30,159 bases of DNA from a virus. The notes under the pieces are model-generated. The model was not told where the DNA came from and did not search any database. It saw nothing but the letters and a program-made list of their open reading frames with translations. Positions 2,561 through 19,485 of this stretch are shown piece after piece. Position numbers and translations under genes: made by a program. How positions within the stretch are numbered: position 1 is the first letter of the stretch; every line of letters starts with the position of its first letter. The stretch is taken from positions 8,244 through 38,402 of the IMG/VR virus record IMGVR_UViG_3300003702_000017. The stretch is one strand, 5' to 3'.

Positions 2561-3988
2561 TTAGGTTGCACGAATTTCTTTTAATTGTTGTTTTAAATAT
2601 GTAACTGTTTTAGCATTAAACGCATAATTAAGATTTTGTAAATGATTATGTAATCGTATATATCTATCAATACGTATTTCCATATTGTTATTTTCAGTAT
2701 GCCAGTGTCCATTATTATCCCATTCAATGTTCCATAAATGACGATCATCATTTAATGGTGCTCCTTCGACAAGATCGCATGGCGGACCGAGAATAACTTT
2801 AACTAGTCCCTTGTCACTTAATGGTTTTATTTCTGTAAAAAAATTATAAGTTTCAAGAAAGTCATCTTCTGTTTCTGTAGGATATCCAATCATCATTAGC
2901 ATTGATATTTTAATATCGTTTTTGTCGCATTGTTCTAATGTATAATATAAATCTTTATTAGTAAAATATTTTTTCATATCTCGTCTTACTTTGTATGATA
3001 CACTTTCAACACCTATTGCTAAATCTAAAAATCCTGCTTTAGCAATATCTTTATATATCTCAGGTGGTAGTTGAGTCTCAGGCCTGCAAATATATTGTGT
3101 ATGACAATGAAAAGGTTTTATATTGTTTGTTTCATAATATGTTATTAGTTCTTTTAATAGGTCATTAAATTGTTTTACATTACCGTTTATTAAGCTATCT
3201 GTAAAGTAAAAATTTCGAATATCATATAATTCGTATTGTGTTGACATTTCGTTAGCAATAGATTTTGGACTTCTATATCTAAATTTAGGCCATTGATAAC
3301 CTATATCGCAAAATGTACATCGTCTAACACATCCACGAGAACCAGTAATATAAAGTATATCAGCACCAAGATCATCTCGTATAGAGGGATCTTTATAATT
3401 TTTTGAATAAATTGAAAAATCGTAATCAGAATAATCAGGAATAGGAACAGAATCTAAATCATTTATTTGAGGTGCCCAGCCATTGATACCAGGATGCTCA
3501 TCTCCTTTTAATAAAGCAAGCATTGCTTCTTCTCCTTCGCCTTTAATAAAAACATCGCATTTTTCTTGTTTTAAAAATCTGTCACCACAATAGTTTGTAT
3601 ATGGGCCTCCTAAAACAATTTTAATTTTTGTATTATGATTTTTAAGTTCGGTACATATTTTTTCACATATGTATAACGAACGTTGTGAAAATAATGACAT
3701 GCCAAACCATGTAGGATTTTCTTTTATAATATATTGTACCCATTCTTTAACATGTGGTTCCATTAATGGATATGATTTATTAAATTGTTCTCGTTGCCTA
3801 AATGTTGTATTAGTGTCAATCCACCATCCAGAATTTTCTGGTCCTACTTTTTCCCATAAATCAATATTCCAATCTACTAAATGACAAGAAAAATTATTTT
3901 GTTGTAACACAGATTTTAAAATCGCAGGGCCAGTAATGGGAGACCGAGTATGTAATCTAGGTAATGTTGCTATAATGCAATCAATCAT
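2561..3988 (-). CDS. Radical SAM protein with cobalamin-binding-like N-terminal domain
   Basis: Residues 1-165 look like the Rossmann-type domain that precedes many radical SAM cores: a DCIIATLPR strand, a VDWNIDLW turn, a KIVLGGPY strand and a GEGEEA segment. The B12-ligating D.H..G motif is not present, so cobalamin binding is doubtful. The radical SAM core follows, with C220, C224 and C227 in GSRGCVRRCTFCDIG for the 4Fe-4S cluster. Further family marks are AIGVES and MMIGYPTE, the latter typical of B12-domain radical SAM and MiaB-like proteins. The reaction is unknown. The start overlaps the end of the upstream twitch radical SAM gene by 8 nt, indicating one operon and coupled translation. 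Confidence 0.85.
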   Translation of the reverse strand: MIDCIIATLPRLHTRSPITGPAILKSVLQQNNFSCHLVDWNIDLWEKVGPENSGWWIDTNTTFRQREQFNKSYPLMEPHVKEWVQYIIKENPTWFGMSLFSQRSLYICEKICTELKNHNTKIKIVLGGPYTNYCGDRFLKQEKCDVFIKGEGEEAMLALLKGDEHPGINGWAPQINDLDSVPIPDYSDYDFSIYSKNYKDPSIRDDLGADILYITGSRGCVRRCTFCDIGYQWPKFRYRSPKSIANEMSTQYELYDIRNFYFTDSLINGNVKQFNDLLKELITYYETNNIKPFHCHTQYICRPETQLPPEIYKDIAKAGFLDLAIGVESVSYKVRRDMKKYFTNKDLYYTLEQCDKNDIKISMLMMIGYPTETEDDFLETYNFFTEIKPLSDKGLVKVILGPPCDLVEGAPLNDDRHLWNIEWDNNGHWHTENNNMEIRIDRYIRLHNHLQNLNYAFNAKTVTYLKQQLKEIRAT

Positions 3989-5216
3989 TGTTTTCTTCTG
4001 TGTATGTATTAATTATATCTGCGATATATTTATGTTCGTCTTGTATATTAAATTTGCGAACAGTATTCATCCAATTGGTAAATTCTATAAATGATTCATA
4101 ACGATTATACGAATCATCATCTTTGTTTATTACTAGAAATGCACTATCTATATTAAAAATTATATTTTTTATGCTTTGTAATTCGATTGAAGGAATAATA
4201 AATGCACTTTTTTGAATTTCTTCTATTATTGTTTTAAATATTGTGTTTTGATGTTGGTTCAATAATAAGTTAGCACACAGGTATGGTTGTATTGCAGGAT
4301 AGATGCTTATATTATTTTGACTAAAAATATTGTTTTGATATTTTGAAAAGTAATTAATAGTATCTATTATATTTCCAACATTGTATATGCTTAAAACAAA
4401 GTTAATTCCAAGTACAGAAATACTTGGATGGTTTAATAATAGTTGAAAGTTTTTGTCTATGTTACTAAAGTTTGTTCCTCGGATCCATTCATATGTTTTA
4501 CCTATGCCATCAATGCTGGCAAAAATTTCTATATCTTTTAGTTTGCTAAATGTTTCAAGAGTTTTTTTGGTTATTGTTGTAATGTTGCTAACCATTCTTA
4601 TTTTTAGAGTTGGTTTAACATTACTAATTTTATCTAGAAATGTTAAGCAGTTTTTATCGTATAATGGTTCTCCACCTTTAATAATTAATAGTTCTAAGTC
4701 GTTTATATTGTCTAAAATTGATTCAAGTACTTCTTTTTGTAGAACAACTGGCTTGAATTGATTATAGTCATAGTGTGTTTTTAATGCATTGAGTGCTTTT
4801 TGCGGCATAGATTTTTCTTGTTGATGCCAATGTGAACTATGAATGCTGTTACACATAACACATCCTAAATTACATTGATTGCTAAAACTAATATCAAGAT
4901 ATTTAATTTTTGGTGTAAGATCTTCTGGTAATCGCTTTCGAGACATTGCATATTTAATTCGTTTACTTTCAAGATTGTGTTGTTCTCTACTATAACAATA
5001 TTTGCAAGCATTAATATATTCATCGTTAAGCATCTTTTCTCTAATCTCTTTTATACGCTCACCATAGAATATGTTTTCTATTGTAGTAGTCGATTCTGTA
5101 AAGTCGTGTAGACTGTGGTCTGCCTCATCAGACCAAACAGGGCATAATTGAGCATGACCTCGTGGGTCAATTGTAATACCATCAAAGGGTATATAACAGA
5201 AATGTTTCTTATTCAT
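3981..5216 (-). CDS. Twitch-type radical SAM protein
   Basis: I place the start at the ATG at 5216 (MNKKHFCYIPFDG), because the longer frame to 5282 adds a low-complexity segment that would run through the promoter region. From this start the protein has 411 residues. The N-terminal auxiliary cluster domain has C7, C25, C71 and C74 (CKYC), arranged as in twitch/SPASM-like proteins but placed ahead of the core. The radical SAM cluster residues are C115, C119 and C122 (QCNLGCVMC), followed by a KGGEPLYD strand that contacts SAM. Such proteins modify peptides, sugars or small molecules; the substrate is not deducible. It is the first gene of the three-gene cassette and diverges from gp32 across about 130 bases. 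Confidence 0.85.
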   Translation of the reverse strand: MNKKHFCYIPFDGITIDPRGHAQLCPVWSDEADHSLHDFTESTTTIENIFYGERIKEIREKMLNDEYINACKYCYSREQHNLESKRIKYAMSRKRLPEDLTPKIKYLDISFSNQCNLGCVMCNSIHSSHWHQQEKSMPQKALNALKTHYDYNQFKPVVLQKEVLESILDNINDLELLIIKGGEPLYDKNCLTFLDKISNVKPTLKIRMVSNITTITKKTLETFSKLKDIEIFASIDGIGKTYEWIRGTNFSNIDKNFQLLLNHPSISVLGINFVLSIYNVGNIIDTINYFSKYQNNIFSQNNISIYPAIQPYLCANLLLNQHQNTIFKTIIEEIQKSAFIIPSIELQSIKNIIFNIDSAFLVINKDDDSYNRYESFIEFTNWMNTVRKFNIQDEHKYIADIINTYTEENND

Positions 5217-5267
5217 ATATTGATATGTGATAAATACATATATAATATATTTATTGTAATTTTTTAC

Positions 5268-5296
5268 TTGACAATTGTACACATAGGCATTATAAT
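5268..5296 (+). promoter_or_regulatory. Sigma70-like promoter of gp32
   Basis: TTGACA (5268-5273), a 17-nt spacer and TATAAT (5291-5296). The expected start near 5303 gives a leader of about 46 nt ending in an AAAGGAG ribosome binding site. On the other strand TTGTCA overlaps the same -35 region and could serve the divergent radical SAM genes, but that reading is weaker. Confidence 0.8.
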
Positions 5297-8232: not shown

Positions 8233-8265
8233 GTATTACATGAACTATTGTAAAGGAGAATTGTA

Positions 8266-9100: not shown

Positions 9101-9922
9101 ATGATTAACAGCGAGATTCTCCAGCAGTATGTTGACGACGGTGCAACCGTAGTTCGAGGTTGTCTCAGTGAAGAATGGTTAGACCTATTGCGGATGGCTG
9201 TTGAACGTGATATTGAGAACCCTGGTCCAATGGTTCTCGATTATATTGAGGGGAATCAATCTGTACCAGGTGCCGGCCGCTTTCACGGTAATCTTCGTAT
9301 TTGGGAAACCGACGACACCTTTCGGGATTTTTGTTTGAATTCTCCACTGCCAGAGCTAGCGGCCGAATTTCTCAGTTCGAAAAAAATTAATCTTTTTTAT
9401 GATCAGTTGTTTGTCAAGGAGCCGGGTATGCTCAATAGAACACGTTGGCATAATGACCATCCCTACTGGCCTATACGAGGCTGGCAGGTTTTGAGCTTCT
9501 GGGTTGCACTGGATCCTGTAAATGCAAGAAATGGTGTTCTTGAATTTATACGTGGTTCACATCGCTGGGGCCGATGGTTTCGACCAGATCTGACATATGA
9601 CCATGAACGTAATCCTAATTATGAGATTATTCCAGATATTGAGGCAAACCGCGATCAGTACGAGATTATGAGCTGGGAGTTGTCGCCAGGCGATGTTTAT
9701 GTGTTTCATGCGTTGACGGTGCATGGTGCTGGTGGAAATGAGAGCAGTGATGTTCGTCGCCGAGGTTATACAGTGCGCTATACAGGTGATGATGTGGTTT
9801 ATGATACTCGTCTTGGAACTAATAAGAGATTATGCTCTGATATACATAAAGATGGCGACCCGCTTGATAGTGAACGTTATCCAGTGGTCTGGCCCCTTGT
9901 ATTTAAGGATTTGCTAATATAA
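9101..9922 (+). CDS. Phytanoyl-CoA dioxygenase (PhyH)-like Fe(II)/2-oxoglutarate oxygenase
   Basis: The 273-residue protein has the double-stranded beta-helix signature of PhyH enzymes: iron ligands H117 and D119 (RWHNDH) and distal H208 (VHGAGGN), with the 2-oxoglutarate-binding basic residue expected in RRGYTVRY (about 219-227). SFWVALDPVNARNGVLEFI is the usual core strand pair between them. These enzymes hydroxylate small molecules using O2 and 2-oxoglutarate; the substrate here cannot be read. Base composition and codon choice are clearly richer in G+C than neighbouring genes, and a 16-bp tandem duplication spans the stop codon, both consistent with fairly recent acquisition. No Shine-Dalgarno is seen; the start directly follows the upstream stop, so coupling is likely. 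An auxiliary metabolic gene is the best description. Confidence 0.88.
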   Translation: MINSEILQQYVDDGATVVRGCLSEEWLDLLRMAVERDIENPGPMVLDYIEGNQSVPGAGRFHGNLRIWETDDTFRDFCLNSPLPELAAEFLSSKKINLFYDQLFVKEPGMLNRTRWHNDHPYWPIRGWQVLSFWVALDPVNARNGVLEFIRGSHRWGRWFRPDLTYDHERNPNYEIIPDIEANRDQYEIMSWELSPGDVYVFHALTVHGAGGNESSDVRRRGYTVRYTGDDVVYDTRLGTNKRLCSDIHKDGDPLDSERYPVVWPLVFKDLLI

Positions 9923-10433: not shown

Positions 10434-11480
10434 ATGTCCGCTCAGAAGTTAGTAAAGATTAATGGGTCCTATCGGAATACGCCTGTTCCAGGTGTTGTAT
10501 TTCCGTTAGTCAAGGCCCTAACAAAAGGTAAGAAAGGTGACTTTGTTACCGTAGATGGAACAACAGTTTCTGGATACCCAGATCGTCATCTTCGTATTAA
10601 GGTGGCAAGTAAGTCAGATTATGAATTTGTCAAATCTGACACTCCTGTGGGATTACCAGAGAATGCTCCCAAGACAGTAGAAACCGATGAAGAAGCAATT
10701 GCGCGAATACGCGATCGGTTTTCAATTCTTGACGAAATGACCGAAGCTACTATTGAGGGCACGGTGCGAGGCATGATTGTCTCAGGCCCTCCAGGCGTTG
10801 GTAAGTCGTATGGTGTAGAAACTGTATTAGAGCGATCTAATACTTTTAATAAACTTGCCGGTAAGAAATGCAAGTATGAGATTGTTAGAGGTGCTATGAC
10901 AGCATTGGGCCTGTATGCTTTACTTTTTAAGTGGAGCGACCCCGGCAAAGTATTAGTGCTCGATGATTGTGATACAGTTCTTTGGGACGAACTTTCGCTG
11001 AACCTTCTTAAAGGTGCACTGGACTCCAGTAAACATCGGCGGCTTTTTTGGAATGCTGATAGTCATAAATTGCGTGGCGAGGGTATTCCAGATCAATATG
11101 AATTTAATGGCTCGATCATCTTTATATCGAACTTGAAATTTGATCAGATAACGAAGAGTGGTCGGATTGGTAAAATTAAGGATCACTTGGAAGCAATTAT
11201 TTCCAGATGTCACTATTTGGATCTGACACTGGATACAATGCGCGACAAGATGCTCCGTATACATCAGATTGTTGGCGATGGTATGTTGAATGAATATAAG
11301 TTCAACAGTGACGAGACAAAGATGATTGTTGATTACATTGACGAGCATAAAGAAAAGTTGCGTGAAGTGAGTTTGCGTATGGTGCTAAAGATTTCAGACT
11401 TGTACAAGATGGCACCCAAGAACGATCACTGGAAGAGACTTGCCGAGACAACTTGTATGCATCGAGAGGTATTAGTATAG
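10434..11480 (+). CDS. AAA-family ATPase
   Basis: The 348-residue protein has an N-terminal region of about 85 residues without a recognised motif, then a single AAA module: Walker A GPPGVGKS (118-125), Walker B VLVLDDCD (173-180), a sensor-1-like FISN (230-233) and a small helical lid toward the end. It does not read as the T4 clamp-loader gp44 or helicase Dda; the long WDELSLNLLKGALDSSK stretch after Walker B suggests a remodelling or loader ATPase. It has its own promoter and a strong terminator, so it is a one-gene unit. Codons are more G+C-rich than in uvsW and uvsX, suggesting high early expression or a different origin. The client is unknown. Confidence 0.85.
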   Translation: MSAQKLVKINGSYRNTPVPGVVFPLVKALTKGKKGDFVTVDGTTVSGYPDRHLRIKVASKSDYEFVKSDTPVGLPENAPKTVETDEEAIARIRDRFSILDEMTEATIEGTVRGMIVSGPPGVGKSYGVETVLERSNTFNKLAGKKCKYEIVRGAMTALGLYALLFKWSDPGKVLVLDDCDTVLWDELSLNLLKGALDSSKHRRLFWNADSHKLRGEGIPDQYEFNGSIIFISNLKFDQITKSGRIGKIKDHLEAIISRCHYLDLTLDTMRDKMLRIHQIVGDGMLNEYKFNSDETKMIVDYIDEHKEKLREVSLRMVLKISDLYKMAPKNDHWKRLAETTCMHREVLV

Positions 11481-11505
11481 TTTACACTATCTGAGCGGAT
11501 GGTGG

Positions 11506-11529
11506 CCGGGGGGCAACCCCCGGTTTTTT
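11506..11529 (+). terminator. Intrinsic terminator after the AAA ATPase
   Basis: A 7-bp stem (CCGGGGG with CCCCCGG), GCAA tetraloop and six T's. The loop and G/C core match the hairpin after gp32. Confidence 0.92.
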
Positions 11530-11532
11530 ATA

Positions 11533-11561
11533 TTGACTTTTTTTCCTTCTTAACGTATAAT
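11533..11561 (+). promoter_or_regulatory. Sigma70-like promoter of uvsW, leaderless context
   Basis: TTGACT (11533-11538), 17-nt spacer and TATAAT (11556-11561). Six bases follow before the ATG at 11568, so the standard +1 is the A of the start codon. Confidence 0.8.
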
Positions 11562-11567
11562 AGTATT

Positions 11568-13022
11568 ATGGCAACAGCGAAATTAATTATTCGCGATGAG
11601 GTTAATATTAAATTGGATAACATAGATCCAAGTACTCGTCGTAAAATGTCTGCCGCTCTTAAGTTTATGCTTCCGTATGCTTATCATATGCCTGCGTATA
11701 AGTTAGGACGCTGGGACGGCATGATTAGATTTTGTGATATCGGTGGTAGAACTTATTTAAATTTATTGGATACATTGCTACCAATAATCCAAAGTGCTGG
11801 TTATGATATTGATATTGAAGATCATAGAGAAACATGGAATCTCAAATTTGATGAAATAGATGAAAATTATTTAAGTGATATTAAATGGCCAAAAGGTCAT
11901 ATTGCGGCCGGTACGAATATAGTTTTACGAGATTATCAAGTAGAAGTTGTAAATAATTCTATTAATCATTTACAAAGTTTGCAAGAAGTTGCTACTGGTG
12001 CAGGTAAAACAATTATAACTGCTACGTTGAGTAAATTGTGTGAGGTGTATGGTAGGACAATAGTTATAGTGCCAAATAAAAGTTTAGTAACTCAAACAGA
12101 GGAAGATTATATTAATGTAGGACTTGATGTAGGTGTGTTTTATGGTGACAGAAAAGAGTATGGGCGCCAACATACCATATGTACTTGGCAGTCATTAAAT
12201 GTATTGCTTAAAAAAAGTAAAAAGAAAATAGCTGATATAGATATAGAGCAATTTATTGATGGTGTTATTTGTGTAATGGTAGACGAAGTACATCAAGCAA
12301 AAGCAGATGTATTAAAAGAATTACTTACAGGTGTGTTTGCTAATATACCTATACGTTGGGGTCTTACTGGTACAATTCCTAAAGAGGAATATGAGTTTAT
12401 AAGTTTAAAAGCAAGTCTTGGTGAAGTTATTAATAGAGTAAGTGCTCATTCATTACAAGAACAAGGAATATTAAGTAATTGCGAAGTTAAAGTTTTACAA
12501 TTAAAAGATGATGTTGAATATCCAAATTATCCAAGTGAATTAAAATATTTGGTTACTGATAAAAATCGAGTAGATTATCTTGCTAAAGTAATAGAAGATA
12601 TTTCTAATACTGGTAATACTCTCGTTTTAATACATCGTATTAAAACAGGTGATATGTTAATTGAAAGATTATCAAATGCAGTATTTGTTAGAGGCTCAAC
12701 TAAAAATGAACAACGGAAAGAACATTATGATGAAGTAGCAATAAGAAACGACAGTCTTATTGTAGCAACGTATGGTGTTGCATCAGTTGGTATTAATATT
12801 CCTCGTATATTTAATCTTGTATTAGTAGAACCAGGTAAAAGTTTTGTAAGAGTAATACAAAGTATAGGACGAGGTATTAGGAAAGCTCCGGATAAAGATT
12901 TTGTTCAAATATGGGATATTACTAGTAATTGTAAATATAGTAAACGGCATTTGGCAACAAGAAAAAAATATTATCGCGATGCTCAATATCCGTTTACTAT
13001 TGAAAAAATTTCTTATAAATAA
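11568..13022 (+). CDS. uvsW: UvsW-like ATP-dependent helicase
   Basis: UvsW is the T4 superfamily 2 helicase that unwinds R-loops and branched recombination intermediates. I start it at the ATG at 11568 (MATAKLII), because the longer frame from 11499 would run through the terminator and promoter. From there 484 residues include an N-terminal UvsW domain (PAYKLGRWDG near 42-51), a Q-motif-like LRDYQ, Walker A ATGAGKT (142-148), DEVH (239-242), LTGT (266-269) and motif VI QSIGRGIRK. Length is close to T4 UvsW (about 500 aa). It has its own promoter, and no Shine-Dalgarno precedes the ATG. Confidence 0.94.
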   Translation: MATAKLIIRDEVNIKLDNIDPSTRRKMSAALKFMLPYAYHMPAYKLGRWDGMIRFCDIGGRTYLNLLDTLLPIIQSAGYDIDIEDHRETWNLKFDEIDENYLSDIKWPKGHIAAGTNIVLRDYQVEVVNNSINHLQSLQEVATGAGKTIITATLSKLCEVYGRTIVIVPNKSLVTQTEEDYINVGLDVGVFYGDRKEYGRQHTICTWQSLNVLLKKSKKKIADIDIEQFIDGVICVMVDEVHQAKADVLKELLTGVFANIPIRWGLTGTIPKEEYEFISLKASLGEVINRVSAHSLQEQGILSNCEVKVLQLKDDVEYPNYPSELKYLVTDKNRVDYLAKVIEDISNTGNTLVLIHRIKTGDMLIERLSNAVFVRGSTKNEQRKEHYDEVAIRNDSLIVATYGVASVGINIPRIFNLVLVEPGKSFVRVIQSIGRGIRKAPDKDFVQIWDITSNCKYSKRHLATRKKYYRDAQYPFTIEKISYK

Positions 13023-13850: not shown

Positions 13851-14331
13851 TATGTTTAAAGAAATTCTTCCTGCAATAGGCAAGAAGGATAGAAGTTTTT
13901 ATAATGAGTTGCCCGAAACAACGGCTAGTACTAAATTAGGTTTTTGGATGATACACAGATGGGCAACATGTTCTATAAAAAATAAAGAGCATTATATTTT
14001 TCTTGTTAATGAATTGTGTAATCGACATTATAGTGAATTAAGTAAGTATCCAGAATTGCAATGGTTGTTATTAAGTGTTATTGGATTAGGAAAAGAGAAG
14101 TATTTTAAGCAATGGGTCGGTGTGCCCAATAGTTTGTCAGAAACAAATTCTATTGATGACTTTTTATTAAAAGTTTATCCAGCTATAAACGATGACGAAT
14201 TAAATTTATTAAAGGAAATGAATACAGAAGATGACTTTGAAACTCTTGCAAAAGAAATGGGACACAACGACCAACAAATTTCTGATATCTTTGGTGGAAA
14301 ACATAGAAGTAAAAAAGACAACAGGGTTTAA
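13840..14331 (+). CDS. Conserved hypothetical protein upstream of zinc-finger gene
   Basis: I start at the ATG at 13840 (MKVDMFKEILPAIG); the longer frame from 13726 overlaps the previous gene heavily. The 163-residue protein is helical with a conserved-looking core: FYNELP, a W-M-I-H-R-W helix, HYIFLVNELCN, then KYPELQWLLLSVIGLGK. It occupies the kind of place where T4-like phages keep small replication proteins, but it does not resemble gp62 clamp-loader sequences as I know them, so no symbol is given. The 3' end overlaps the zinc-finger gene in another frame. Confidence 0.7.
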   Translation: MKVDMFKEILPAIGKKDRSFYNELPETTASTKLGFWMIHRWATCSIKNKEHYIFLVNELCNRHYSELSKYPELQWLLLSVIGLGKEKYFKQWVGVPNSLSETNSIDDFLLKVYPAINDDELNLLKEMNTEDDFETLAKEMGHNDQQISDIFGGKHRSKKDNRV

Positions 14332-15001
14332 GTGTAAATTTTGTGAAAGAGAGTTTAAGAGTGTTAAGACACTAGCTGCACATACCTGTGAACAAAAGCG
14401 TCGGCATATAGCACAAAATGAAAAACAAGTGCAACTTGGTTTTCGTGCATTCCAACGATTTTATGAATTAAATTCAACTGCAATTAAACCTAAACCTAAA
14501 ACGTTTGGTGAATTTAGATTATCTAATTATTATCTTGCGTTCGTTAAATTTGGTAAATTTGCTAAAGAAGTAAATTGTTTACGATATGAAAGTTTTGTTG
14601 ATTGGCTTATTAAAAATAATTTACGATTAGATGAGTGGGCAAAAGATGGTGCTTATGAATTATTTGTTAGAGATTATGTAAATTATGAATTAGCAGATGA
14701 AGCAATAGCACGAAGTATAAAATTTATGCAAAGATGGGCAGAAAAAGAAAAAGAACAATGGCATTTATTTTTTAATAAAGTAAATTCTAATATTTTTGTT
14801 TATTGGATTAGAACTGGAAGGTTATCTCCTTGGATAGTTTTTAATTGTCAATCTGGGCAAATAGCATTGACTAATTTAAGTGATGAACAAATGGGTTTAA
14901 TTGCTGATGCTTTAGATCCTACTTTTTGGAATAAACGTTTTTTAAATTCACAGGATGATGTTAATTTTGTTAAACGTATTTTAGTTGAGGCTGGTTTATG
15001 A
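14294..15001 (+). CDS. C2HC zinc-finger protein
   Basis: The frame is open from an ATG at 14231, but that start lies deep in the preceding gene; GTG at 14294 is a shorter alternative just ahead of the conserved region, so the start is uncertain. With GTG at 14294 the zinc site is C14, C17, H30, C32 (CKFCEREF, then HTC). Behind it come a basic helix (EQKRRHIA), a GFRAFQRFYEL helix and a long helical body with YYLAFVKFGKF and a C-terminal region around RTGRLSPWIVFNCQSG. A nucleic-acid-binding role is expected from the finger. The stop overlaps the start of the DnaE-like gene (ATGA), making a coupled pair. Confidence 0.75.
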   Translation: MENIEVKKTTGFKCKFCEREFKSVKTLAAHTCEQKRRHIAQNEKQVQLGFRAFQRFYELNSTAIKPKPKTFGEFRLSNYYLAFVKFGKFAKEVNCLRYESFVDWLIKNNLRLDEWAKDGAYELFVRDYVNYELADEAIARSIKFMQRWAEKEKEQWHLFFNKVNSNIFVYWIRTGRLSPWIVFNCQSGQIALTNLSDEQMGLIADALDPTFWNKRFLNSQDDVNFVKRILVEAGL

Positions 15002-15561
15002 AATTACCTGATATTGATATTGATTTAAAAAATCGAGAAGACGTATTAAGTATATTAGAACATATACCAGCAAGTCTTGATGGATCTAAAAAGCACAATA
15101 CGGGTGTATATTTTACTAATGTTCCAGTTAATCCATTAACTAATGTTTCGAGTATAAATTATAAAGAAGCCGAAGGACGGGGTTATTTTAAACTTGATCT
15201 TTTAAATGTTAGTGTGTATGAGAATATAAAAAATGAGGAACATTTAAATGAATTAATATCTCAAGAACCTGTTTGGGAACTGCTAGAACATAAAGAAATA
15301 GTAGAACAATTATTTCATATACATAACCATTATAATATTGTAAAACAATTAAAACCAAAAAGTATAGAACAATTAGCGGCTGTATTAGCAGTTATTCGTC
15401 CAGCAAAAAGATATCTGTTAAAAGAAGGATGGGATAAAATTAACGAAGAAGTTTGGATTAAACCAGAAGATAATAGTTATTATTTTAAAAAATCTCATTC
15501 TATTGCATATGCGATAGCAATAGTAGTTCAATTAAATTTATTAGTAGATGATATTGATTAA
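14998..15561 (+). CDS. Miniature DnaE-like (C-family) DNA polymerase core
   Basis: The 187-residue protein follows bacterial Pol III alpha (DnaE) landmarks in order but in miniature. LPDIDIDL (residues 3-10) matches PDFDVDF of E. coli, placing D5 and D7 at catalytic D401 and D403. KKHNTGVYFT (31-40) matches the KHAGGVVI strand. YFKLDLLN (63-70) matches VKFDFLGL, placing D67 at D555. PKSIEQLAAVLAVIRPAKR (120-138) matches the fingers segment ending ALFRPGP. YFKKSHSIAYA (162-172) matches FNKSHSAAYA. All three catalytic aspartates are kept, yet PHP, clamp-binding and tau-binding regions are absent: DnaE is about 1160 aa. T4-like phages replicate with a B-family polymerase, so this is not the replicase. 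It is coupled to the zinc-finger gene by ATGA. Catalytic activity is inference. Confidence 0.7.
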   Translation: MKLPDIDIDLKNREDVLSILEHIPASLDGSKKHNTGVYFTNVPVNPLTNVSSINYKEAEGRGYFKLDLLNVSVYENIKNEEHLNELISQEPVWELLEHKEIVEQLFHIHNHYNIVKQLKPKSIEQLAAVLAVIRPAKRYLLKEGWDKINEEVWIKPEDNSYYFKKSHSIAYAIAIVVQLNLLVDDID

Positions 15562-15932
15562 TCAAATTTTCTAACTAGTTGTACAGTTCGTCTTTTAACT
15601 CGTTTTCGTATAATATTGTGGAGACTTGTAATTGGTCCAAATAAAAATTCTACATCCTTGCTAATAAAATTTCTTAAACAATATCTAAATTCTTCAGTTT
15701 CAATTGGTAAAAATAAGTTAATTGGTGTTATACGATTACTTTCCCACCACCAAATTTCTCCAATACGAAGGAATTTTTTCTTATGCTCTTCGTTTTTTAG
15801 TCTTTCAAAACAATATATACTGGTTATTTGATTATTATGATTTTGAACAATGCCAACAATTTCTTCATTAGAATGAGATATACCCGTCAAAAATGGATAT
15901 TTTTTAATTGTAGATGAGATATCGTCGATCAT
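15558..15932 (-). CDS. Conserved hypothetical protein (WWWESNR)
   Basis: The start is taken at the ATG at 15932 (MIDDISSTIKK); the longer frame to 15977 begins with a low-complexity stretch inside the divergent promoter region. The 124-residue protein contains IGEIWWWESNR, then PINLFLP and EFRYCLRNF, and ends in a strongly basic segment (RKRVKRRTVQLVRK). The tryptophan block looks familiar from marine T4-like phages but has no function known to me. The basic C-terminus suggests nucleic-acid contact. It converges on the DnaE-like gene, with stops overlapping by 4 nt, and diverges from the structural gene at 15977. Confidence 0.75.
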   Translation of the reverse strand: MIDDISSTIKKYPFLTGISHSNEEIVGIVQNHNNQITSIYCFERLKNEEHKKKFLRIGEIWWWESNRITPINLFLPIETEEFRYCLRNFISKDVEFLFGPITSLHNIIRKRVKRRTVQLVRKFD

Positions 15933-15950
15933 TATTATATACTTATTATA

Positions 15951-15958
15951 GATAAATA
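15951..15958 (+). promoter_or_regulatory. Late promoter GATAAATA
   Basis: One mismatch from the T4 late octamer; predicted +1 at 15964, 13 nt before the ATG at 15977. It lies in the 44-bp divergent gap with the minus-strand gene. Confidence 0.65.
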
Positions 15959-15976
15959 TCTTAGAGTATAATAACA

Positions 15977-16765
15977 ATGGCTACTGGTAATCTATATATT
16001 TATAAACCGACATATAAGTTAACCATATCCAATGATGGCCATAGACTGGAAGGACAAATGTATAATAATTCAATAAAAGTTCATAAAGGTATAGATGATA
16101 CAATTACATTTAACGTGTATGATGATTCTCGAAGGCTTGCTAATATTAATAATGTAACATTATCATTTAATGTTATTGATGCTAATTCTGGAATTAGTGT
16201 GTTAAATAAAGTCCCAATTGTGCATTCTCAAGACAAAGGTAAGTTTGATGTAAAATTTAATAGAGATGAAGTTGCTAATATGGATCCTGGATTGTATGAG
16301 TATAGTGTAATAATAACAACTGTTGAGGGTGATACTAGTGTAGCTTATACTGATTTATCTCAAACTGCTACTGGTGTAATAGAATTAATTGGTGATATTT
16401 TACCAGATCCAGCTAGTACACTTGTAGTAGATTCATTTACTATAAATGGAACGCGGCATGAAAGTTATGCTTTTACTGCAAAACCAAATCGAAGTTATCA
16501 ATCATCATTAAATACGTATGCGGTTTATCTAACAAATTATTCTGGTAAATTTTATTTTGAAGGTAGTCATGATATGACAGCACCAACTAATTGGTTTGTT
16601 GTTGATTTGCAATCAGATAATTCTTTAATTGATTTTAATCTTTATGCATCAAAATCAGGTATTGATCCAGGTAATTTTGAAATTTCTACAAATTGGTTCA
16701 GAATAGTTCATGTTCCTGACGGTGCTAACGTTGGAACCGTTGACAAAGTGTTAATAAGAAGTTAA
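15977..16765 (+). CDS. Probable virion structural protein with BppU-like N-terminal domain
   Basis: 262 residues, beta-rich. Residues about 35-120 (GIDDTITFNVYDDSRR, then TLSFNVIDANSG, then a GKFDVKFNRDEVANMDPGLYEYSV stretch) have the immunoglobulin-like alternation seen in BppU-type N-terminal domains of phage tail and baseplate proteins. The second half is another beta domain ending in HVPDGANVGTVDKVLIR. A late promoter lies directly upstream, matching a virion role. It interrupts a run of replication genes, as late genes often do in marine T4-like genomes. The exact virion location is unknown. Confidence 0.65.
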   Translation: MATGNLYIYKPTYKLTISNDGHRLEGQMYNNSIKVHKGIDDTITFNVYDDSRRLANINNVTLSFNVIDANSGISVLNKVPIVHSQDKGKFDVKFNRDEVANMDPGLYEYSVIITTVEGDTSVAYTDLSQTATGVIELIGDILPDPASTLVVDSFTINGTRHESYAFTAKPNRSYQSSLNTYAVYLTNYSGKFYFEGSHDMTAPTNWFVVDLQSDNSLIDFNLYASKSGIDPGNFEISTNWFRIVHVPDGANVGTVDKVLIRS

Positions 16766-16774
16766 AATATATTA

Positions 16775-17764
16775 GTGTTAATAGATAAGATAAAATCTTT
16801 AATACTATCTCGTTTGGTAGGCAAAAAAACTTCACCTAGTGGATGGATTACATTAAATTGTCCCATGTGTGTTAGTATGGGAGAGCCTCGACCAGATACA
16901 AGAAATCGAGGTGGTTTTAATTTTAGTATGAATGATGTTATATCCTATCATTGTTTTAATTGTGGACATACAACAGGGTATAGACAAAGTGGTATATTAG
17001 GAAAAAAGTTTTTTACTTTATTAATTAATATAGGCGTTGATGATAATGTAGTTAAGAAATTAAAAATTGAAAGTTTAAAAGAAAAAGATAATATCGAAAT
17101 AGTCGAGACAGTTAATAAGATAAATTTAGATTGGAAAGAAGTTAAATTACCGAAAGGTGCTAAACTGGTTTCAGATGAAACAAATAAAAATGTATTATTA
17201 TATTTACAGTCTCGTGGTAAAGGGATTTATGAAAATTGGGATTATTATTGGACACCCGATACTTATATGGAATTGAATCGACGTATTATTGTTCCTTGTT
17301 ATTTTAAGCGTAAAATAGTAGGATGGGTATCGAGACATATTAAACCAAATAAAAATACTACACCAAAATATTATGTTAGTGTTCAACAAGATTATTTGTT
17401 CAATGTAGATCAATTGTATACAAAAGATAGAAAATATGTTATAATAGTAGAAGGACCATTTGATGCAATAGGTATCGATGGTGTTGCATTGTTAGGTTCT
17501 CAAGTAACTGATAGGCAAGCAGAGTTTTTAAATACATTTAATAAAAAAATAGTGCTTGTACCAGATAGAGATAAAGCAGGAAAAAAATTAATAGCAAGTG
17601 CAATAAAGCATGGATGGTCAGTTAGTTTTCCTGAATGGGAAAAGGATGTTAGAGATGTAGCCGATGCTGTAAAAAAATATGGTCGGTTGTTTACATTAAA
17701 GAGTATAATTGGTGCTATTGAAAATAGTCAATTAAAAATTAATGTTTTAAAGAGGCGAATATAG
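16775..17764 (+). CDS. 61: gp61-like DNA primase
   Basis: T4 gp61 makes RNA primers and works with the gp41 helicase. The 329-residue protein has a zinc ribbon with C29, C32 (CPMC) and C60, C63 (CFNC), then a TOPRIM catalytic core with E226 in VIIVEGPFDAI and D264/D266 in VLVPDRDKAGK. Length agrees with T4 gp61 (342 aa). The start is GTG at 16775 with no Shine-Dalgarno; a weak late-like octamer (TTAAAATA, 16762-16769) ends 6 bases before the GTG. The primase lies directly ahead of a small linker gene and the helicase gene. Confidence 0.93.
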   Translation: MLIDKIKSLILSRLVGKKTSPSGWITLNCPMCVSMGEPRPDTRNRGGFNFSMNDVISYHCFNCGHTTGYRQSGILGKKFFTLLINIGVDDNVVKKLKIESLKEKDNIEIVETVNKINLDWKEVKLPKGAKLVSDETNKNVLLYLQSRGKGIYENWDYYWTPDTYMELNRRIIVPCYFKRKIVGWVSRHIKPNKNTTPKYYVSVQQDYLFNVDQLYTKDRKYVIIVEGPFDAIGIDGVALLGSQVTDRQAEFLNTFNKKIVLVPDRDKAGKKLIASAIKHGWSVSFPEWEKDVRDVADAVKKYGRLFTLKSIIGAIENSQLKINVLKRRI

Positions 17765-18103
17765 ATGTCACAAATTAGCGATTTATATAAAAAAGTAAAA
17801 GGACTTCAAGAACAAATAGATAAAATAAAAATTCAAAATCAAAAATTTCAAGATATAATTGATGCGTCAGGTGGTACTTTACCGAAAAAAAAGACTGGAG
17901 ACACACCCCCATCCTCTAGTGGTAAACTTGTAGGAAATTGTGGTGTGAAATTAAGTTATAAAGAACAGGTAGTATTAAAATCAATAACAACGCAATTGAC
18001 TGTTAAACGAGTAATGATGATTAAGTTATTAAATTTTACAGATAGATTGTTGAAATCGGATCCACATTTTGTTCATCAAGTGAATAAAGAGAAAACGTCG
18101 TAA
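17765..18103 (+). CDS. Small coiled-coil protein between primase and helicase genes
   Basis: 112 residues. The N-terminal third is a clear coiled coil (LYKKVKGLQEQIDKIKIQNQ), followed by a Pro/Ser-rich linker and a C-terminal helical region (SYKEQVVLKSITTQLTVKR). The ATG directly follows the primase stop and its stop overlaps the helicase start by one base (TAATG), so the three genes are co-translated. A link between primase and helicase is a reasonable guess, not shown by any motif. Confidence 0.75.
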   Translation: MSQISDLYKKVKGLQEQIDKIKIQNQKFQDIIDASGGTLPKKKTGDTPPSSSGKLVGNCGVKLSYKEQVVLKSITTQLTVKRVMMIKLLNFTDRLLKSDPHFVHQVNKEKTS

Positions 18104-19485
18104 TGCCAAAAGAATTTACAGAAGATTTACAAAAATTATTTTTAAGTTTTTTAATTAGTGATAAAGAGTTATTTCTTCGTGTGCAAAGTTTAGTTGTACC
18201 TGAATATTTTAATAACAAACTGCGGCCAGCAGTTAAATTAATTCGAGAACATGCTGACAAATATAATAGTGTGCCGACAGTTGAACAAGTTAAGGGTAAA
18301 GCAAATGTTCAATTAGAATTAGATAAAGATATAACTGCTAGGCATAAAGAATGGTTTGTAGATGAGTTTCAAGATTTTGCAAAGTTTAAAGCACTTGAAA
18401 GAGCAATTTTGGCAAGTGCTGATGATATTGAAAAAGGCGAATATTATTCTGTAGAAAAAAGAATTAAAGAAGCATCGGACGTAGGATTAGCAACAAATTT
18501 AGGAACTAATTATTTTAATAATCCATTAGAGAGATTAAAAAGTTTAAGGGATAATAATGGGCAAGTAAGTACAGGATGGACAGCAATTGATAAAAAGTTA
18601 TTTGGTGGATTTAATAAAGGAGAACTTAATATTTTTGCTGGTAGTAGTGGTGCAGGAAAAAGTTTATTTTTACAAAATCTTGCTTTAAATTGGGTGCTTC
18701 AAAAACTTAATGTTGTTTATGTTACATTAGAGTTAAGTGAAGAATTAGTAGCAATGCGATTAGATAGTATGAATACTGGAATGAGTAGTAGAGCATTATT
18801 TAAAAATATGGAAGACGTTGATTTAAAAGTGCGTATGATTAAAAAAACTTCAGGCGCATTGCAAATTGTGTATTTGCCAAGTGGTGTAAATGTATCTCAA
18901 CTTAAATCATATATTAAAGAATATGAAATTGCGAGCGGATTGCAACCACAAGCAATTATAATTGATTATCTTGATTTAATGATGCCTATTGATAGACGGG
19001 TAAGTCCAAGTGATTTATTTGTTAAAGACAAATATGTTGCTGAAGAATTGAGAAATATGGCAGTAGAGTTAGATATATTATTAGTAACAGCATCACAATT
19101 AAATAGGACAGCAGTTGAGGAAATTGAATTTGACCATAGTCATATTGCTGGTGGATTAAGTAAAGTTCAGACAGCAGATAATGTTATGGGTATATTTACA
19201 AGTGCGCCAATGCGTGAAAGAGGGCGTTATCAAATTCAATTTATGAAAACTAGAAGTAGTAGTGGTGTCGGACAAAGAGTAGATTTGCAGTTTAATATAG
19301 AAAGTTTGCGGATTAGTGATTTGCCCGAAGGTGAAGAAGAAGAACCAGCTGAGATATTATATAGTAATATAGTTAGAAAGAGTTCAGTAACAGATGATAA
19401 AGAATCTGATCCTGCCCGAACTACTGAAGTTAAAGCATCGAATTTAAGAAAAATGATTTCAAATATGAATAAGTTGAATAGATAA
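18103..19485 (+). CDS. 41: gp41-like replicative DNA helicase (DnaB family)
   Basis: The hexameric helicase of the T4 replisome. It has 460 residues with an N-terminal helical domain, then the RecA-like DnaB core: STGWTAIDKKLFGGF (about 156-170), Walker A GSSGAGKS (180-187), VTLELSEE (about 207-214) carrying the catalytic glutamate E210, Walker B IIIDYLDLM, and a VTASQLNR strand (motif H3 type). A GGLSK..QTADNV loop and an FMKTRSS strand near the C-terminus complete the pattern. Length fits T4 gp41 (475 aa). The C-terminal 50 residues are acidic and variable. Coupled to the upstream linker gene. Confidence 0.95.
   Translation: MPKEFTEDLQKLFLSFLISDKELFLRVQSLVVPEYFNNKLRPAVKLIREHADKYNSVPTVEQVKGKANVQLELDKDITARHKEWFVDEFQDFAKFKALERAILASADDIEKGEYYSVEKRIKEASDVGLATNLGTNYFNNPLERLKSLRDNNGQVSTGWTAIDKKLFGGFNKGELNIFAGSSGAGKSLFLQNLALNWVLQKLNVVYVTLELSEELVAMRLDSMNTGMSSRALFKNMEDVDLKVRMIKKTSGALQIVYLPSGVNVSQLKSYIKEYEIASGLQPQAIIIDYLDLMMPIDRRVSPSDLFVKDKYVAEELRNMAVELDILLVTASQLNRTAVEEIEFDHSHIAGGLSKVQTADNVMGIFTSAPMRERGRYQIQFMKTRSSSGVGQRVDLQFNIESLRISDLPEGEEEEPAEILYSNIVRKSSVTDDKESDPARTTEVKASNLRKMISNMNKLNR

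Follow-up and report, generated by a model that had tools for sequence, protein, structure and literature searches.

A marine T4-like phage protein from a probable split, minimal DnaE-type polymerase system

We examined a 30,159-nucleotide stretch of viral DNA (hereafter the window; positions 8,244 to 38,402 of IMG/VR record IMGVR_UViG_3300003702_000017) and focused on a 187-residue protein that it encodes (hereafter B), which is a marine member of an already described split polymerase system related to the alpha subunit of bacterial DNA polymerase III (Pol III alpha, or DnaE). Conservation, fold prediction, and gene co-occurrence make it probable that B is the metal- and template-binding half of a two-chain, thumbless, minimal DnaE polymerase, which is completed in trans by a second phage protein (hereafter A) and is auxiliary to a B-family replicase. 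An initial annotation, made from the letters of the window, had regarded a DnaE-like core in a T4-like phage as unexpected, but a split minimal Pol III alpha, encoded by distant genes and accompanied by a B-family polymerase, had been predicted from the genomes of group 2.2 jumbo phages in 2021 by Iyer et al. (PMC7824862), who proposed cooperation with the B-family enzyme or, alternatively, an ancestral state. Their split model was reached independently of the A/B analysis presented here, which adds an uncultivated clade, residue equivalences with invariance counts, the tiling of the fold by the two proteins, co-occurrence counts, carriage below 200 kilobases (kb), and conserved synteny.

The B gene and its database matches

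The B gene occupies exactly 14998-15561 on the plus strand of the window, where its ATG at 14998 overlaps the stop codon of the upstream gene as ATGA and an in-frame stop lies only a few codons 5′ of the start. Together, these two features fix the start of B, and the in-frame stop therefore limits any N-terminal extension beyond the metal motif to a few residues at most. B matched PHROG 11778 over residues 5-185 (E = 2.6e-70) and, more weakly but significantly, phrog_405, a full-length phage DnaE family (E = 8.7e-8), while 16 of 26 B family members matched the NCBIfam Pol III alpha model TIGR00594 (best E 6.1e-9). Matches were found in 65 GenBank phage records (63 with at least 80% query coverage; 36-57% identity among the matches listed), including RaK2, PA5oct, Atu_ph07, Phosso, SCTP-2, XacN1, 121Q, GAP32, and CBB, and in at least 599 stretches of a viral-contig collection. 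The ratio of nonsynonymous to synonymous substitution rates (dN/dS) between the window gene and its closest relatives was ~0.09-0.20, so the B gene is under purifying selection. Its family matches put it far from a chance open reading frame (ORF). A single-sequence search of the PDB with B gave no match and Pfam hits to the B sequence alone stayed below the cut-off; because neither search returned anything usable, profiles and a predicted fold were needed. Separately, GenBank records of RaK2-like phages label B inconsistently, as DNA polymerase, hypothetical protein, or putative membrane protein.

Motifs and invariant residues of B

Residues of B were mapped to E. coli DnaE through anchor motifs, and the resulting features, all on the plus strand, are as follows:

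14998-15561, plus strand: B half of the predicted split minimal Pol III alpha (187 residues, PHROG 11778)
15010-15024, plus strand: DIDID motif, D5/D7/D9 equivalent to E. coli DnaE D401/D403/D405
15091-15105, plus strand: KHNTG motif, H33 equivalent to E. coli H511
15190-15198, plus strand: K-L-D, K65/D67 equivalent to E. coli K553/D555, D67 being the third catalytic aspartate
15397-15411, plus strand: RPAKR, R134 equivalent to E. coli R639, fingers
15484-15513, plus strand: FKKSHSIAYA fingers helix, H167 equivalent to E. coli H760 and Y171 to Y764

Five DnaE landmarks had been reported in a set order from the sequence, and all of them are present in that order in this ORF; a profile search likewise aligned B to the E. 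coli metal motif, fingers, and FNKSHA helix. The three catalytic aspartates of E. coli (D401, D403, and D555), which are absolutely conserved across the C family (PMC3919608), correspond to D5, D7, and D67 as first proposed, and these were invariant among homologs: D5, D7, D9, H33, G36, K65, and D67 were identical in 110 of 110 B relatives covering these positions, and R134, P135, K137, H167, and Y171 in 111 of 111 (one sequence in the alignment is a fragment). D405 is present in all DnaE groups and is an asparagine in PolC (PMC3919608), and the aspartate found at its equivalent, D9, in all 110 proteins therefore places B with DnaE rather than PolC. H760 has been proposed to act as the Pol III steric gate (PMC8485763), and the invariance of its equivalent suggests that deoxynucleotides are the substrate. 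A C-terminal QLNLL sequence of B was considered as a clamp-binding motif and rejected, as it sits in a helix homologous to an E. coli fingers helix.

Predicted fold of B and the parts missing from it

An AlphaFold2 model of B, built with 88 relatives in the alignment, had a mean predicted local distance difference test score (pLDDT) of 91.7, and in a Foldseek search of the PDB its first 15 ranks held only Pol III alpha/PolC-type chains (probability 1.00, though with modest E-values, the best being 3.9e-3). Structural alignment (VIA-align) matched B residues 1-187 to E. coli 398-780, Taq 459-837, and PolC 969-1295, with Z scores of 6.4-10.1 for C-family chains and 3.8 for the first unrelated chain. 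In the predicted model, B is thus a DnaE palm plus fingers, with full-length matches to C-family polymerases only, and the possibility of an unrelated fold, raised with the initial annotation, did not materialize.

Large parts of a DnaE polymerase are absent from the B chain. D9 and H33 are separated by 24 residues in B versus 106 in E. coli, where the thumb sits, and R134 and H167 by 33 versus 121; the PHP domain, the thumb, most of the fingers, and the C-terminal domains are missing. With nothing ahead of the metal motif, B also has no GRGS loop (E. coli 361-368) and no first half of the palm, and it is not by itself a whole miniature polymerase. The proposal that B is a miniature C-family polymerase therefore holds for its DnaE palm and fingers homology and fails for the single chain, since the GRGS loop and a palm segment, which serve C-family enzymes in binding the incoming nucleotide, are found on a second gene in relatives. 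A similarity in length between B and T4 gp55 was judged a coincidence once the fold was known.

A second gene encodes the other half of the palm

Scanning the carrier genomes with Pfam PF07733 matched a small ORF, A, in every complete genome. A proteins (PHROG 11127) are mostly 164-201 residues long, ~173 being typical, and cover only profile positions ~12-98 of 260; PF07733 was matched by 65 of 65 aligned A proteins, and the Pol III alpha models likewise matched all 65. GRGS, or its variant form GRGSC, was present in 103 of 103. The model of A (pLDDT 89.5) aligned to E. coli 277-393 and a profile search aligned A to 321-393; with B at 398-780, the two proteins therefore tile the DnaE palm without overlap. 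The A proteins finish with a stretch like WGVGRGSSVASYVLYLIGIHKVDSIKYDLDFNEFLK, which has an equivalent in E. coli, and go no further; A ends in EFLK/R at the point where B begins. A split intein, as in cyanobacterial DnaE, was set aside, as there are no extra residues at the C-terminus of A or the N-terminus of B for an intein half.

The two genes lie far apart in relatives, by tens of kb or more: A is near the gp44 clamp-loader gene and ~34 kb from B in RaK2, and ~44 kb from B in PAC2. Each half was found in more than 590 viral-contig stretches, and the sets of GenBank phage records carrying A and B are nearly identical, the exception seen being a 109-kb partial record. We examined 22 carrier records of at least 140 kb, and A, B, and a B-family polymerase were present in all 22, while PHP (PF02811) gave no match over the cut-off anywhere in these genomes and A-family polymerase (PF00476) was found in none of 19 records. 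Across 24 genomes, distances of A and B were correlated (r = 0.78), a value reached by 0 of 2000 permutations. Closer to the window, A and a 68%-identical B occur ~44 kb apart on one 66-kb contig.

A proposed two-chain polymerase and its alternatives

In the arrangement that we propose, B would contribute the three catalytic aspartates, the H511/K553 region, and the dNTP-contacting elements of the fingers (the R639 and H760 equivalents), and A (~173 residues, from a distant gene) would bring in the first half of the palm, including the GRGS loop that binds the dNTP triphosphate, and association of the chains in trans would rebuild a single C-family active site. Working beside the B-family replicase, such an enzyme would most likely synthesize short stretches of DNA during recombination-dependent replication, repair, or primer hand-off, roles suggested by the gene neighbors and by the constant presence of the B-family replicase. 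We infer the physical association of A and B, their polymerase activity, and their cellular role, as we do the presence of A in the window's particular phage. With somewhat less assurance, we also favor the idea that A and B, ~360 residues together, form a working thumbless C-family polymerase, perhaps the smallest of the family, which would be either a relic or a DnaE reduced to an extreme degree.

Several observations weigh against these proposals. Without a thumb and with little of the fingers left, the pair would bind DNA less well, and its activity may be feeble, dependent on other proteins, or something other than templated DNA synthesis; a literature search limited to open-licence papers found no biochemistry or experimental follow-up of the split polymerase. 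The correlation of A and B distances is also expected from plain vertical descent of both genes. No significant match to A came from the window's own 38-kb record or from the contigs of 74-80%-identical relatives (fragments reaching 107.5 kb at most), although a profile built from 98 A proteins was used and all filters were disabled. Two A-carrying contigs of 156 and 159 kb, both fragments, gave no B match. The B-family polymerase was also not seen on the 38-kb record, which is itself a fragment.

Among alternatives, it is unlikely, yet worth weighing, that A and B form another kind of nucleotidyltransferase (for end-tailing or RNA-repair transfer) on the pol-beta-like palm, with no true templated DNA synthesis. 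The absent thumb and much reduced fingers imply a poor grip on DNA, and untemplated transfer is common among small pol-beta-fold enzymes. Jumbo phages are, moreover, reported to carry RNA-repair systems. Against this, no variation was seen among the dNTP-contacting fingers residues, of which the proposed steric gate H760 is one, and the B gene is placed among DNA replication and recombination genes. We consider it improbable that A and B lack polymerase activity altogether and serve as a structural or regulatory replisome pair, such as a modulator of the B-family polymerase, primase, or clamp loader. A B-family polymerase in every large carrier checked and the missing DNA-binding parts of the C family would fit such a role, whereas catalytic aspartates and nucleotide-contacting residues that are invariant in both halves at ~40% overall identity would be unusual for a dead enzyme. 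Finally, B might work on its own, whether as a complete small polymerase or by inhibiting the host replicase or acting as its decoy. Its three catalytic aspartates and the confident prediction of its fold as a single chain speak for this, but there is very little chance that it is correct: B has neither the GRGS loop nor the first palm half, A co-occurs in 22 of 22 large carriers, and a decoy does not need invariant catalytic residues. Host-replicase inhibition, floated in the initial annotation, found no support, and the invariant catalytic and substrate-binding residues argue against it.

Relation to known polymerases and significance

Within the system of Iyer et al. 2021, the window protein corresponds to the stand-alone C-terminal unit with the metal- and template-binding parts, and single pieces had been noted in earlier papers as CBB_328 (172 residues) and Atu_ph07 gp316. 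The window differs in coming from an uncultivated T4-like phage clade whose members are 68-80% identical at B and at least 42% different there from every named phage. In contrast to the jumbo phages of that study, the carriers found here include Slicko01, which at 141 kb is below the 200-kb jumbo threshold. PHROG 11778 (B) and PHROG 11127 (A) are both labeled "DNA polymerase," and the window B differs from its family by sequence divergence only.

With bacterial DnaE (E. coli Pol III alpha, PDB 2HNH; Taq, 2HPI/3E0D), B shares the palm and fingers fold, and E. coli D401/D403/D405/D555, H511, K553, R639, H760, and Y764 all have matches in B. Unlike bacterial DnaE, B lacks the PHP domain, thumb, most of the fingers, and the clamp-binding, OB, and C-terminal domains, and the palm is distributed over two chains. 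Unsplit phage DnaE proteins of 548 residues (L053, 541-2184, minus strand; L256, 145-1785, minus strand) match PF07733 and PF17657; like the split type, the unsplit enzymes (contigs G003 and G053) have a C-family palm and fingers and no PHP domain, but they are single chains with a thumb region. Both contigs also carry a B gene; phages with the split type thus apparently can have the unsplit DnaE as an additional C-family polymerase.

Should the pair prove active, two polypeptides would suffice for a C-family active site, with no need for a thumb, a PHP domain, or clamp-binding parts. A and B would then define the minimal catalytic core of the bacterial replicase and bear on the ancestral versus reduced origin of such phage enzymes, and many large T4-like phages would be using two polymerases unrelated to each other. 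Both families are wide enough for picking well-behaved proteins.

Gene neighborhood of B

B is surrounded by a replication/recombination block, in which the main features besides B are:

11499-13022, plus strand: UvsW-type helicase, bounding the conserved replication/recombination block on its upstream side
14231-15001, plus strand: PHROG 11058 gene with a weak C2H2 zinc-finger match, directly upstream of B and overlapping its start (ATGA)
15558-15977, minus strand: PHROG 11637 gene, convergent with B and kept beside it in RaK2 and PAC2
16775-17764, plus strand: gp61-type DNA primase (Toprim), downstream in the block
18103-19485, plus strand: gp41-type DnaB helicase, downstream in the block

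The window and Klebsiella phage RaK2 share the order UvsW, 11279, 11758, 11058, B, 11637 (minus strand), 14467, gp61, and gp41, with one additional gene after UvsW and another between 11058 and B in RaK2; gp32 and UvsX lie upstream in the window. PHROG 11058 is also found upstream of B in RaK2 and, directly, in PAC2, and the ATGA overlap in the window suggests coupled translation and a possible partner. PHROG 11637 is the only opposite-strand gene of the block and is tail-to-tail with B in RaK2, PAC2, and the window. Just before UvsW lies an AAA ATPase gene with weak clamp-loader similarity (PHROG 1250; 10434-11480, plus strand), and a phytanoyl-CoA dioxygenase (PhyH) gene (9101-9922, plus strand) stands among the recombination genes. 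Two radical SAM genes (2561-5282, minus strand), one with a B12-binding domain and one SPASM-like, are unusual beside a T4-like replication block.
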